From Akkermansia muciniphila (GTDB lineage: Bacteria > Verrucomicrobiota > Verrucomicrobiia > Verrucomicrobiales > Akkermansiaceae): a stretch of DNA of 64,000 bases. A program made the position numbers and the translations under genes. Position 1 is the first letter of the stretch. Each line of letters begins with the position of its first letter. The stretch spans positions 1 to 64,000 of the forward strand of contig CAMCIC010000016.1 in assembly GCA_945874895.1 (NCBI GenBank). Reading direction: 5' to 3'. Below the pieces are notes generated by a model. The model was not told where the DNA came from. It searched no databases and saw only the letters and a program-made list of their open reading frames with translations. Positions 56,403 through 60,886 of the stretch are shown piece by piece.

Positions 56403-56430
56403 TTGACGGATGAGCGTCGTTTGCTATGTT
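56403..56430 (+). promoter_or_regulatory. candidate promoter for the HtrA gene, possibly leaderless
   Basis: TTGACG (56403-56408) and TATGTT (56425-56430) are separated by 16 bp. A start six to seven bases past the -10 falls at 56436-56437, on the ATG at 56437. If true the mRNA has almost no leader. An in-frame upstream start at 56410 lies inside this promoter and was not used. Confidence 0.45.
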
Positions 56431-56436
56431 GGATCT

Positions 56437-57396
56437 ATGAAACTGCGTTTGTTTGGATGTTTCTGTTTGTTGCATCTCGCCCATGCCGAACCTGTGCAGG
56501 ATCTTCAGGATTTGCTAAAGGTGGAGGCGAAGGTGCGGGCCGTGGCGCAAAAGCGCGTTCCCTTTACCGTTGCTCTGATAGCGGCGGACGCGAGTAGCTC
56601 CGGTTCCGGAGTGATCACGTCCAAGGATGGTCTGATTCTTACTGCTGCCCACGTGGTGCAAGGGAACGAAACCATGGATGTGGTTTTTCCCGATGGAAAA
56701 ACTGTCAAAGGCAAGGTGCTGGGTGCCAACTACGGCAAAGACTTGGCCATGGTGCGCATCGAGAATGAGGGCAAGTGGTCGGACGTGCCGCGAGGAGTCT
56801 CCAAGAACCTTGAAGTAGGAGATTGGGTGGTTGCCACCGGTCATGCTGCTGGCTTCGATCCTGCTCGCACGCCACCAGTTCGTTTCGGCCGCGTCGTATC
56901 CAAGGGGCCAGGCAATTTTTTTACGACGGACTGCACCCTGATCGGCGGTGATTCTGGCGGACCGATTTTCGATTTGGAAGGCAACATCATTGGCATCAAT
57001 TCTAACATTGGTCAGGCGCTCAAGGTCAATAATCATGCGGGAGTGGATGGATTTAAGGACGATTGGGATAAGATGTTGCAAGGTGAACAATGGGGCAAAC
57101 TGGTGCTGGATCCGTTAGAAAACGAGGACATGCCAGTGCTGGGTTTGGCCATCGATTGGTCACGCGCAGGTTTGGTGGTGGGTGGCGTCAGTCGCGGTTC
57201 CAAAGCCACCGAGGCTGGCATCCAACCGGGCGACCTCATTGTTTCCTTGGAAGGCCAGCGCATCCGCAATCTGGATGATCTCCGCAACGAATTGTTGCGC
57301 AAGCAGGTGGGCGATCTTGTCAAACTTGAGATCGAGCGCGATGGACGCCCGTTGACAAAGGAAGTGGAACTGGTGCGACGCGGAGATGCACAATAA
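56437..57396 (+). CDS. HtrA/DegP-like serine protease
   Basis: A secreted protease of 319 residues. The signal peptide (about 1-17, ending HLAHA) is followed by a chymotrypsin-fold domain with the complete triad: His72 (LTAAHVV), Asp102 (GKDLAMVRI) and Ser173 (GGDSGGPIF). One PDZ domain (about 225-312; VVGGVSRGSKATEAGIQPGDLIVSLEGQRIRNLDDLR) completes it. The likely role is periplasmic protein quality control. The region between the protease and PDZ domains (VNNHAGVDGFKDDWDKMLQGEQW) carries an insert. The related but altered gene follows after 12 bp. Confidence 0.93.
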   Translation: MKLRLFGCFCLLHLAHAEPVQDLQDLLKVEAKVRAVAQKRVPFTVALIAADASSSGSGVITSKDGLILTAAHVVQGNETMDVVFPDGKTVKGKVLGANYGKDLAMVRIENEGKWSDVPRGVSKNLEVGDWVVATGHAAGFDPARTPPVRFGRVVSKGPGNFFTTDCTLIGGDSGGPIFDLEGNIIGINSNIGQALKVNNHAGVDGFKDDWDKMLQGEQWGKLVLDPLENEDMPVLGLAIDWSRAGLVVGGVSRGSKATEAGIQPGDLIVSLEGQRIRNLDDLRNELLRKQVGDLVKLEIERDGRPLTKEVELVRRGDAQ

Positions 57397-57408
57397 GGGA
57401 AAGGGAGC

Positions 57409-58599
57409 ATGATGATGAAACATGGGATATGGCTAAGTTTGTTGTCTGTTCTGCCACTCATGGCGGAGGAGTTGCCGTTACAAAAAGAGCAAGATCGCGC
57501 CGAGTTGCGTCGGCAGTCAGGCGAAGTCTTTGATGTGGTTTCTCCGATCGCCCAAAAGGTGGGGAAATCCGTCGTTTGGATCTGGGCCGGTGGCAAGCGC
57601 CAGTTGTGCTTGGGTACCGTGGTGGGCGACGGCTCGCAGGTGATCGCCAAATGGAGTGAAATCGCCAAGGCTCAAGGGAAGCCCTTGCAATGCGTCGGAG
57701 CAGGGAATGCAACCATCGATGCCACTCTCGATGGCGTGTTCGAAGACGAGGACATCGCCTTACTCAAATTGAAAAATTCACCCCTCCGCCCAGTCACGTT
57801 TCAAGCCAGTGCCAAACCCGACTTGGGAACTTTTTTGATCGCTCCCGGTCCCGGTGATGTTACTTTGGGCATGGGTGTGGTCAGTGTGATGGAGCGCACG
57901 CTCCGCGAGAGCGATCAGGCTTTTGTGGGCGTCGGCGTGGAAAATCACACGGAAGGCACAGGGGTTGTCATCCGTCAATTGGCGGAGGGCTCGCCGGCAA
58001 AAAATGCGGGACTGAGGGAAGGGGATGTCATTCTCAATCTCGGTGGCAAGATCGTCGGCAGCATGATGGAGTTTCGTTCGCAGCTGACTTCTCTGAAACC
58101 CGGTGATACGGTGAAGCTCTCCTATTCACGCGAAGGGGAAACGAAAAATGTGGAGATTGTGCTCGGCTCCAAACCGATGATGCCACAGTTTCCCCAACGT
58201 CGTCTGGAAGTCATGGAGCGCATGGGGGGAGAGATCAGCCAGGTGCGCGATGGTTTTCCCTCGGTGATCCAGACCGATATGGTGCTGAATCCGGAGGAAT
58301 GCGGTGGTCCCGTGCTCGATTTGCAAGGTCAGGTTGTGGGCATCGTCGCCGCTCGTGCCGGTCGCATTCGCAGCTACGTGATTCCCTCTGAAGCGATCCT
58401 TGCCATGCTGCAACGCAAACCCATCGAAGCCAAGCTTGCGAAGGTGAAGACTCCCGATCCAGGTCCTCAGCTCTCGCGCAATCGAGAGGTAAGACCCCGG
58501 CTCAATCGCCCAGATATGGAGCGCATGCGCGCACGGATGAAGGAAATGCAGCAGTTCATGCGACAGCTCGATGCCGAGCTGGGTGACCTTGATCGATGA
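57409..58599 (+). CDS. catalytically altered HtrA relative with internal PDZ domain
   Basis: A secreted protein of 396 residues. Signal peptide to about 19. A protease-like first half follows (SVVWIWAGGKRQLCLGTVVGDGSQVIAKW; D115 in EDIALLKL). At the His position (in LTNNHVV) is Ser83 (AKWSEI); the Asp is kept. A PDZ domain (about 173-255; EGTGVVIRQLAEGSPAKNAGLREGDVILNLGG) comes next, and after it the last part of the protease fold (FPSVIQTDMVLNPEECGGPVLDLQGQVVGIVAAR), where the nucleophile Ser is Cys298 in E-E-C-G-G-P. So the PDZ sits inside the protease fold and the triad is Ser/Asp/Cys. The C-terminal tail is charged and Met/Arg-rich (about 350-396). Probably a chaperone or regulatory pseudoenzyme, although Cys could still act as nucleophile. 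Confidence 0.85.
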   Translation: MMMKHGIWLSLLSVLPLMAEELPLQKEQDRAELRRQSGEVFDVVSPIAQKVGKSVVWIWAGGKRQLCLGTVVGDGSQVIAKWSEIAKAQGKPLQCVGAGNATIDATLDGVFEDEDIALLKLKNSPLRPVTFQASAKPDLGTFLIAPGPGDVTLGMGVVSVMERTLRESDQAFVGVGVENHTEGTGVVIRQLAEGSPAKNAGLREGDVILNLGGKIVGSMMEFRSQLTSLKPGDTVKLSYSREGETKNVEIVLGSKPMMPQFPQRRLEVMERMGGEISQVRDGFPSVIQTDMVLNPEECGGPVLDLQGQVVGIVAARAGRIRSYVIPSEAILAMLQRKPIEAKLAKVKTPDPGPQLSRNREVRPRLNRPDMERMRARMKEMQQFMRQLDAELGDLDR

Positions 58600-58648
58600 T
58601 CCGCTTCGGGCTTGCGTTCACACTGTCCTTCTGCCAATTTGTCGCCCG

Positions 58649-59674
58649 ATGGCAACTGATCAAAAACATTCTGAGTTGCTGGTAGGCGCTTTTTGCCTCG
58701 TAGGCCTCATGCTCTTGGGCAGCTTGATTCTTCAGTTCGGTAGTTTTGGCGAACGTTTTAACAAATCGTATCGACTGACATTGTTGGTGGATGACGCAGC
58801 TGGCATCATCAAGGGTTCAGAGGTCCGCATGGGCGGTGCCAAAATCGGCCGCGTGGCCCGTCTTCCGGTTTTGACAGAAGATGTCAATGTTCAAATCGAT
58901 TTGTTGATCGAGAGTCGTTTCCGCATTCCGGAAGGATCAACGCTCGGCGTGGCATCAGCCTCGTTGCTGGGTGATAAGATGATCATCGTAACACCTTCTA
59001 CCCAACAAACGGGTCGATTCATTCCTGCCGATACCGTGATCGCCGGATCCGGGCCATCGGGACTTGATGCGATCCAGAGCAATGCCGAAATTCTCAGCCG
59101 CGATGCGCGCAAACTCATGGTGGGTGCGACTACCACGCTGCAAACCGTGGATGCTGCGATTGCGGAGATCCGCACTTCTTCGGAGGAGTTGACCAAGACC
59201 CTCAAAAAAGTCAACGAATCCATTCTCAAGCCGGACAATCTTGCGCTCGTGGATGGAGCGATTCAAAACGTGAACCAGAGCACGGTGGAATGGAAAAAAG
59301 TCAGCGCGGATCTGGCGCCTGCGATGCAAGACGCTCGCAAAGCGATCCAGGCGATGGAAAAGGCGGCGGTGGGCGCGGAGCGCACATTGGGTAAAATCGA
59401 CCAGCGGGTGGATGATTTGGGACCGACTCTGGCCGAGCTTCCCTTGGCCACCAAAGCCATCGCGCAAGCGGCGAACAAGGCAAACGAAACGATGGACCAT
59501 GTGGTTAAAGGACAGGGTTTGTTAGGCACTCTGACTCATGACGATCAGGTATCCGCCGATGCCAAATCTTTCATTCGCAATCTGAAGGAACGTGGGATTC
59601 TCCGCTATCAGGACGGAGAATCCTTGCATCCTGCGGATGATCCGCGCAATCGCTTCCGAGGGAAACGTCGATAA
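58649..59674 (+). CDS. MlaD/MCE-domain protein
   Basis: A 341-residue protein anchored by one N-terminal membrane segment (about 10-30) with an MCE domain (about 35-115; YRLTLLVDDAAGIIKGSEVRMGGAKIGRVARL). The rest is long amphipathic helix (about 150-300), as in MlaD relatives such as PqiB/YebT and Mce proteins that form a tunnel for lipids across the periplasm. No MlaE or MlaF gene is adjacent. The ATG at 58649 is used; an upstream start at 58571 overlaps the preceding gene. The next gene is 15 bp downstream. Confidence 0.88.
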   Translation: MATDQKHSELLVGAFCLVGLMLLGSLILQFGSFGERFNKSYRLTLLVDDAAGIIKGSEVRMGGAKIGRVARLPVLTEDVNVQIDLLIESRFRIPEGSTLGVASASLLGDKMIIVTPSTQQTGRFIPADTVIAGSGPSGLDAIQSNAEILSRDARKLMVGATTTLQTVDAAIAEIRTSSEELTKTLKKVNESILKPDNLALVDGAIQNVNQSTVEWKKVSADLAPAMQDARKAIQAMEKAAVGAERTLGKIDQRVDDLGPTLAELPLATKAIAQAANKANETMDHVVKGQGLLGTLTHDDQVSADAKSFIRNLKERGILRYQDGESLHPADDPRNRFRGKRR

Positions 59675-59689
59675 CTCTGCTGATTCTCC

Positions 59690-60886
59690 ATGCAAAGCCG
59701 CAAGCCCGATTCCAGCGGAAAAAATTCCCATCCTCCTGCGGTTCCTCGGGTGGCATTGCTGATCGAGACCTCGAATGGCTATGCGCGTTCCATTCTCCAC
59801 GGGGTGGAGGATTTCATTCGCAGTCATCATCCTTGGCACATTTTCCTTGCTGAGCGACGCAGGGGGGACGCTCCGCCCAAATGGTTGGACGATTGGGATG
59901 GTGATGGCATCATTGCCCGTATCGAAAACAAAAGCATGGCTCAAGTTTTGGCTCGCCTCCGCGTGCCGGTGATCGATCTCAGTTCCCATCGTTACCTGCC
60001 CGGCTTGCCCGGTGTCATCACGGATGGCAGAGCGATCGCTGAAATGGCTGCCACTCATTTTCTCAACCGCGGGTTCGAGCATTTCGCTTACTGCGGCGTG
60101 CCCCGTTTCCCTTGGTCACGCCAGCGTGGCGACTACTTCGTGAAGATCCTCGAGGAGAAACATCTGAACTGTCATCGGTATCAGAGCTCCAAGAAAGGTG
60201 AGGCCGATAGCGAGGTGGAAACCGATGATATTGCTCGCTGGTTGAAAAGCTTGCCCAAACCGGTAGCGGTTTTCGCCTGCTACGATGCGCGCGGTCGCCA
60301 GATTCTGGATGCCTGCCATCGCGCCGAGTTGTCGGTTCCAGAACAGGTGGCGGTGTTGGGCGTGGACGATGATGAGTTGCTCTGCGAGCTGAGCCCTCAG
60401 CCCTTATCGAGCATCGATCCGAACCCGCGCCGATGCGGTTGGCTGGCCGCGGAAATGCTGGAAATGATGATGGCGGGACAAAGCCCCACGCCATTGATCC
60501 GTGTCGTTAGCCCCGTCGGGATCAGCACGCGTCAGAGCACCGATGTTTTTGCCATGGAAGACGCCAACCTCGTCAAAGCCCTGCGTTTGATTCGTGAACA
60601 CGCCTGCCGCGGCATCACGGTCGATGAAGTTTCCCGCATGGCGGGATTGGCCCGCCGCACGATGGAGTCTCGTTTCAAAAAGATGTTAGGCCGCAGTCCT
60701 CACGAGGAAATTATGCGCATTCAGGTCCAGCGTGCCCAACGGTTGTTGCTGCACAGCAATTTGCCCGTATCCGTGATTGCGGAACGTGCGGGATTCGAGA
60801 CACCGGAATACTTCAGCGTTGCTTTCAAACGAGTCACCGGAATGCCTCCTGTGACCTATCGAAAAAAACGCGGGGAAATGAAGTGA
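59690..60886 (+). CDS. XylR-type AraC-family regulator
   Basis: A transcription regulator of 398 residues. The N-terminal part (about 20-280) is a LacI-like sugar-binding domain (VALLIETSNGYARSILHGVEDFI, VAVLGVDDDELLCELSPQPLSSIDPNPRRCGWLAAEML). The C-terminal part is an AraC helix-turn-helix pair (LIREHACRGITVDEVSRMAGLARRTMESRFKKMLGRSPHEEIMRIQVQRAQRLL, and FETPEYFSVAFKRVTGMPPVTYR). This fusion is that of E. coli XylR, the xylose-responsive activator. Convergent with xylA, so it most likely controls xylose genes. ATG at 59690. Confidence 0.92.
   Translation: MQSRKPDSSGKNSHPPAVPRVALLIETSNGYARSILHGVEDFIRSHHPWHIFLAERRRGDAPPKWLDDWDGDGIIARIENKSMAQVLARLRVPVIDLSSHRYLPGLPGVITDGRAIAEMAATHFLNRGFEHFAYCGVPRFPWSRQRGDYFVKILEEKHLNCHRYQSSKKGEADSEVETDDIARWLKSLPKPVAVFACYDARGRQILDACHRAELSVPEQVAVLGVDDDELLCELSPQPLSSIDPNPRRCGWLAAEMLEMMMAGQSPTPLIRVVSPVGISTRQSTDVFAMEDANLVKALRLIREHACRGITVDEVSRMAGLARRTMESRFKKMLGRSPHEEIMRIQVQRAQRLLLHSNLPVSVIAERAGFETPEYFSVAFKRVTGMPPVTYRKKRGEMK

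Follow-up and report, generated by a model that had tools for sequence, protein, structure and literature searches.

A putative HtrA pseudoprotease with a PDZ domain inside its protease fold, paired with a full-triad HtrA homolog in Verrucomicrobiota

The window, which is the whole 64,000-nt stretch of Akkermansia muciniphila contig CAMCIC010000016.1 analyzed here, contains two adjacent and related genes for HtrA-type proteins, termed A and B (Table 1). Gene B is an open reading frame of 396 codons for amino acids on the forward strand, running from the ATG at 57409 to a stop codon that ends at 58599. As stated in the original prediction, it directly follows a related protease with a full triad, namely A (His81, Asp111, and Ser182), at a distance of 12 nt. 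Both proteins are probably exported. At the same-genus loci the pair is followed by an MlaD-like gene (58571-59674 in the window) and a XylR/AraC-like gene (59690-60886); none of these was found outside the same-genus loci in the 14 loci searched, many of which end 1.5 kb past B.

Table 1. Coordinates of the A-B pair and its features in the window, with partner genes at other loci that apparently lack a PDZ domain
Feature	Coordinates	Strand	Basis
Gene A: HtrA-type protease, full triad, C-terminal PDZ domain, 328 aa; probable start Met10 at 56437	56410..57396	+	
12-nt gap from the stop codon of A to the ATG of B, purine-rich, ribosome-site-like	57397..57408	+	Sequence
Gene B: predicted HtrA-fold pseudoprotease with internal PDZ domain, 396 aa	57409..58599	+	ORF, Pfam, AlphaFold2 model
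Probable signal peptide, residues 1-18, cut near LMA/EE	57409..57462	+	Inferred from sequence by eye
Protease fold, N-terminal half, residues 45-163	57541..57897	+	Model and alignments
Ser83 at catalytic His position; Ser in 114/123 rows, His in 0/123	57655..57657	+	Alignment
Asp115, retained catalytic Asp; 120/123 rows	57751..57753	+	Alignment
Arg163, aligned with Arg of GIVSALGRS in DegQ, loop L3; Arg in 121/123 rows	57895..57897	+	Profile alignment
PDZ domain in place of loop L3, residues 169-255	57913..58173	+	Pfam, alignment, DSSP of model
Protease fold, C-terminal half, residues 281-335	58249..58413	+	Pfam, model, VIA-align
Cys298 at catalytic Ser position; Cys in 47/123 rows	58300..58302	+	Alignment
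Family motif Arg316-x-x-Arg319; 112/123 and 122/123 rows	58354..58365	+	Alignment
C-terminal helix, residues 367-395, coiled-coil-like by eye	58507..58593	+	DSSP of model
Partner A apparently without PDZ domain, locus L106	3211-3957	-	
Partner A apparently without PDZ domain, locus L107	1757-2536	+	
Partner A apparently without PDZ domain, locus L096	1796-3604	+	

In B, Pfam recognizes a PDZ_2 domain at residues 173-250 (E 7.6e-18) and divides Trypsin_2 into two stretches, the better of which (residues 260-312, profile positions 87-144) comes after the PDZ domain. In comparison with PDB sequences, residues 98-162 of DegQ match residues 101-161 of B and residues 170-204 match residues 281-315, each match being weak alone. 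These two matched segments are separated by 119 residues in B but by only seven in DegQ, and the PDZ domain of B is therefore inserted between the strand that ends in GVVSV..R163 and the strand VIQTD, where other HtrAs have loop L3. No B-specific model was present among the Pfam and NCBIfam matches of B. The score of B with TIGR02037 of NCBIfam (98.5 bits) lies below the cutoff of 416.2, which says little about B because the active partner A misses the same cutoff with 155.9 bits; the NCBIfam scores for SpoIVB (TIGR02860, 17.5 bits against a cutoff of 305.25) and for MamO (21.7 bits against 800) also stay below.

An AlphaFold2 model of residues 19-396, computed with a 66-row family alignment, has a mean pLDDT of 91.9 and a pTM of 0.81. 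With VIA-align, the DegS protease domain (3lgu, DegS-deltaPDZ) could be superposed over 185 of its 191 residues, within residues 13-325 of the model, with a Z of 21.9 and an rmsd of 3.6; the program also aligned 179 residues of the MamO protease domain (5hma) with a Z of 20.7 and an rmsd of 2.7. All of the 50 PDB rows shown by Foldseek for the B model were HtrA-type proteins. From the DegS superposition it follows that, in the model, both halves of B belong to one trypsin-like protease domain with the PDZ domain looped out. It had been claimed that the PDZ domain lies between two halves of the fold, and this agrees with the Pfam match and the model; a model in which residues 45-165 do not pack with 285-335 had been named as a refutation, and this outcome did not occur. 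Measured against the definition of HtrA (S1C), B has the two-barrel trypsin-like protease domain; it lacks the His-Asp-Ser triad, for which Ser83-Asp115-Cys298 stands, and its PDZ domain is placed between the halves instead of C-terminal to the protease domain.

The alignments also bear out what had been read at the active site: KWSEI of B, with Ser83, corresponds to AAHVV of the upstream protein with its catalytic His, Asp115 is kept in a DIALL motif, and Cys298 takes the position of the catalytic Ser within EECGGP. Conservation was counted in 123 pair-linked B rows, from which L101 and two rows with B before A were left out and in which L115 appears as two half rows; the counts for A and the tree distances over 123 rows, given below, rest on the same selection. 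Position 83 is occupied by Ser in 114 rows, Thr in three, Ala and Glu in two each, and Val and a gap in one each, and by His in none. The nucleophile position is far more variable, with Cys in 47 rows, Val in 21, Ala in 20, Met in 17, Ile in eight, Thr in six, Ser in two, and Leu and a gap in one each; the two rows with Ser at this position (L028 and L142) carry a second Ser, and no His, at position 83. Conservation of Cys298, which had been set beforehand as a test, thus did not hold. Seven fused proteins (L068, L092, L093, L103, L139, L140, and L141) carry Ala, Glu, Thr, or Val in place of Ser83 together with Cys at the nucleophile position, and they make up seven of the eight rows with a non-Ser residue at position 83. 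Lys81 of B and Gly174 of its PDZ domain, the latter of which we take to be part of the carboxylate-binding loop, are each kept in 119 rows. In the partner A, His, Asp, and Ser are all kept in 123 of 123 rows, and the triad was found in 101 of 101 sequences of an earlier A set that included a few HtrAs outside the pairs.

The alignment thus gives good support to a B that would be catalytically dead and have a non-catalytic role, and thiol catalysis by B appears unlikely because Cys298 is variable and His is found at position 83 in none of the 123 rows. A decaying pseudogene was rejected on the dN/dS of B, which ranges from 0.055 to 0.101 in five same-genus comparisons; that of A ranges from 0.031 to 0.088, B being somewhat above A in each comparison, and six of the ten dS values underlying these ratios exceed 1 and are saturated. 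To judge from these values, B is under purifying selection.

The distribution searches were confined to Verrucomicrobiota. The P0001 search gave a match in 30 of 38 relatives and in at least 47 of 383 genomes of the phylum (E up to 1e-12, with the best four candidates per genome scored), and a family profile matched in at least 207 of 288 sampled genomes of the order (E up to 1e-30) and at least 89 of 384 genomes of the class (E up to 1e-40), with the best five to seven candidates scored in both cases; all these genome counts are lower bounds. Most order-level matches from the family of the window were listed with two matches per genome, and the genome of the window itself has two A-B pairs, on contigs C16 and C4. 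The B of the second pair (L002 486-2493; C4:142935-144942) has Val at the Ser position.

Association with A was assessed in Verrucomicrobiota loci that had been gathered without using A as query; only hits whose domain score exceeded 80 bits were accepted as B, no B row came from loci with other HtrAs or with a PDZ domain alone, and duplicates or a fragment (L003, L006, L009-L014, L122, and L123) were set aside. L115, whose single B falls into two domain hits, counts once here. Among the 125 B called, 124 adjoin or are fused with an HtrA homolog: 103 are separate genes after A, 18 form A-B single ORFs, two precede A, and one is a B-A fusion, so that 121 directly follow A. The only B without A is at L101, whose locus has about 2.5 kb upstream, and at L083 the B that precedes an A lies close to where the fetched locus ends, so that its own A may be located beyond. 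In 95 of the 99 separate pairs having a Met in the B frame, the Met nearest to the A stop codon is found at -20 to +60 nt, a choice that biases toward small A-B gaps. The 19 single-ORF pairs, one of them reversed, carry at least 10 genus labels. In the reversed fusion (L104 1454-3010, minus strand, 519 aa), the PDZ pseudoprotease comes first and is followed by the active protease without PDZ. The PDZ domain of B is the only one in the pair where A has none, as at L104 and L106 according to Pfam and at L096 and L107 according to the profile ends. A was not found at 1e-12 in the 14 tested B-less genomes of genus g3, for which at least 20 such genomes were listed, and a search of seven other B-less genomes with A gave no match or matches no better than 9.8e-26, which is the level of ordinary DegP-like proteins there (6.4e-25 in the genome of the window). 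Two alternatives had been offered for B at the outset, a pseudoprotease partner of the active HtrA and a protein with new thiol chemistry; the former is well supported by the 124 paired B out of 125 and the triad in 123 of 123 partner rows, and the latter is not supported, given the variable Cys and the missing His.

The tree distances of A and B are correlated with an r of 0.89 over 123 rows, and 0 of 1000 permutations were as high, none exceeding 0.07, but the permutations ignore the relatedness of the rows, and mirrored trees partly reflect common descent. When each row was assigned to either of the two pairs in the window's genome, A and B agreed in 119 of 123 cases, the four exceptions being fused proteins. 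In 30 two-pair genomes, plain correlations were 0.82-0.91 for every A/B combination, those across pairs being likewise high at 0.82-0.89. Partial correlations in the same genomes were 0.58 for A1-B1 and 0.57 for A2-B2, compared with 0.41 for A1-B2, 0.25 for A2-B1, 0.15 for B1-B2, and -0.06 for A1-A2. These values favor co-evolution within the A-B pair as a likely reading of the sequences, though the signal is not clean. A tree of the protease domain (150 columns) places A in one clade (support 1.0) and B in another (0.997), and a tree of the PDZ domain (83 columns) leaves the origin of the PDZ domain of B undecided; one alignment of fusions with single genes was set aside, its B rows being judged from identities and conserved columns to have been aligned to A. 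The natural A-B fusion L091 (616 aa) gave a pLDDT of 89.5 and a pTM of 0.83 as a single-chain model with 33 paired rows, of which 18 are natural fusions and 15 were read through the stop codon between separate genes. For halves of equal size that do not pack, one would expect a pTM well below this value, and the model suggests, indirectly, that the natural fusion forms one confident unit.

The LD/L3 region of A and its counterparts in other pairs carries a near-invariant motif, GH..G....R....R.GR, unlike the canonical HtrAs compared. The L3 Arg of A appeared to be lost when hhalign was used with four canonical sequences, an alignment in which 12-14 residues separate the matched Gly from the Asp in 119 of 123 rows, and it was kept by MAFFT with 18 canonical sequences and by hhalign with 17. 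The alignments thus disagree on whether A has lost this Arg, a loss that would make it depend on the Arg of B: the notion had support at first and was then contradicted by the larger canonical sets.

HtrA proteases are commonly portrayed as homotrimers whose protomers each sense as well as cut, with L3 as the presumed relay from one protomer to the active-site (LD) loop of its neighbor. Arg163 of B is presumably the counterpart of HtrA1 Arg302, and a dead subunit that keeps this signaling Arg and has a PDZ domain in the same loop suggests, at the level of sequence, a regulatory subunit acting in trans. B is probably a non-catalytic subunit of the active A with a PDZ sensor on board. It would dock on A, in a physical complex that may also form in species with separate genes; its PDZ domain would recognize a peptide, such as a C-terminus exposed when an envelope protein is damaged; and peptide binding would change L3 of B and thereby the activation loops of A. 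A more far-reaching proposal, to which we give slightly less than an even chance, is that of a split HtrA, in which A catalyzes and its dead sister B, with the PDZ domain in L3 beside the signaling Arg, switches A in trans, the two making up an old, widespread, and regulated envelope protease of Verrucomicrobiota. If this is true, B is the only sensor in pairs whose A has no PDZ domain. Evolution seems to have split the work, giving one part to an active protomer and the other to a dead one with the PDZ domain in the signaling loop, and with such a division each half of the PDZ-L3-LD relay would become open to study by itself. No member of this family is known to us from experimental work.

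All of the pairing evidence would fit equally well with B as an inhibitor or a zymogen-like cap that holds A inactive until the PDZ domain of B is occupied. This arrangement is nevertheless rather unlikely, since no inhibitor-like feature came to notice in the sequence of B, and MamO, the analog that has been studied, makes its partner more active (PMC4794232). It is also doubtful, at a still lower probability, that the main function of B is binding of a ligand or metal at the old active site, as in MamO. A new conserved polar set, comprising Lys81 (119 rows), Ser83 (114), Asp115 (120), and Arg319 (122, of 123 each) and in part located beside the old triad in sequence, would speak for such a site; against it, the B positions conserved in more than 80% of 99 rows include no His that stands out.

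B might instead act on its own as a PDZ chaperone or scaffold and merely be co-transcribed with A, which would be compatible with the conserved Gly174, with which B may bind peptides alone, but this role is very improbable in view of the 19 single-ORF fusions in several genera, including the reversed one, and of the joint absence of A and B from the 14 tested genomes. Finally, B could hardly be a cysteine protease or other thiol enzyme acting through Cys298: although the Cys is found in 47 of 123 rows, including nine same-genus sequences (L015-L023), most other rows have Val, Ala, Met, Ile, or Thr, a His at the base position is never found, and human HtrA2 with the corresponding Ser-to-Cys change at the nucleophile, S276C, is described as an inactive protease (PMC6172425).

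The separate parts of B are known from other systems. B shares the protease fold, as seen with DegS-deltaPDZ, and a PDZ domain of the same kind with DegP/DegQ/DegS (HtrA, MEROPS S1C) but differs from them in having no triad and in the internal instead of C-terminal position of the PDZ domain. Deg5 and Deg8 of Arabidopsis form a joint complex. As in some of the A-B pairs, an HtrA without a PDZ domain stands beside one with it, but both keep the triad (PMC3640471). SpoIVB (S55) is a PDZ-protease of clan PA, for which insertion of the PDZ domain into the protease core is mentioned by its authors; however, it is an active enzyme, and its PDZ domain apparently precedes the protease domain in sequence, with segments swapped between both (PMC12502668). 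An HtrA-like protein of V. cholerae O395 with an atypical triad was also considered and rejected, its PDZ domain being modeled by its authors as following the protease domain (PMC3575494). Of the 7,852 microbial PDZ proteins covered by one survey, 7% remained unclassified (PMC6411480). In a literature search, with subscription papers mostly outside its scope, no paper was found on a dead HtrA with the PDZ domain inside the fold or on a conserved or fused pair of this kind; in the literature searched, this combination is thus without a match.

A close likeness is to MamE/MamO of magnetotactic bacteria, which also consist of an active HtrA and a homologous pseudoprotease, and B shares with the MamO type a degenerate triad and an active HtrA partner. 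MamO is needed for MamE-dependent proteolysis and its own triad is not; contact between MamO and MamE had not been detected by the authors, and PDZ is nowhere mentioned in the main text (PMC4794232). MamO differs in its TauE-like transporter domain and metal binding (PMC4794232), whereas Pfam gave no match to such a domain in B at E up to 1 and the C-terminus of B is a single helix in the model; furthermore, in the pairs described here the PDZ domain lies inside the fold, and the two proteins are sometimes fused. MamO is an earlier example of an HtrA being activated by a partner without catalysis, and B would be comparable to it in a different architecture.
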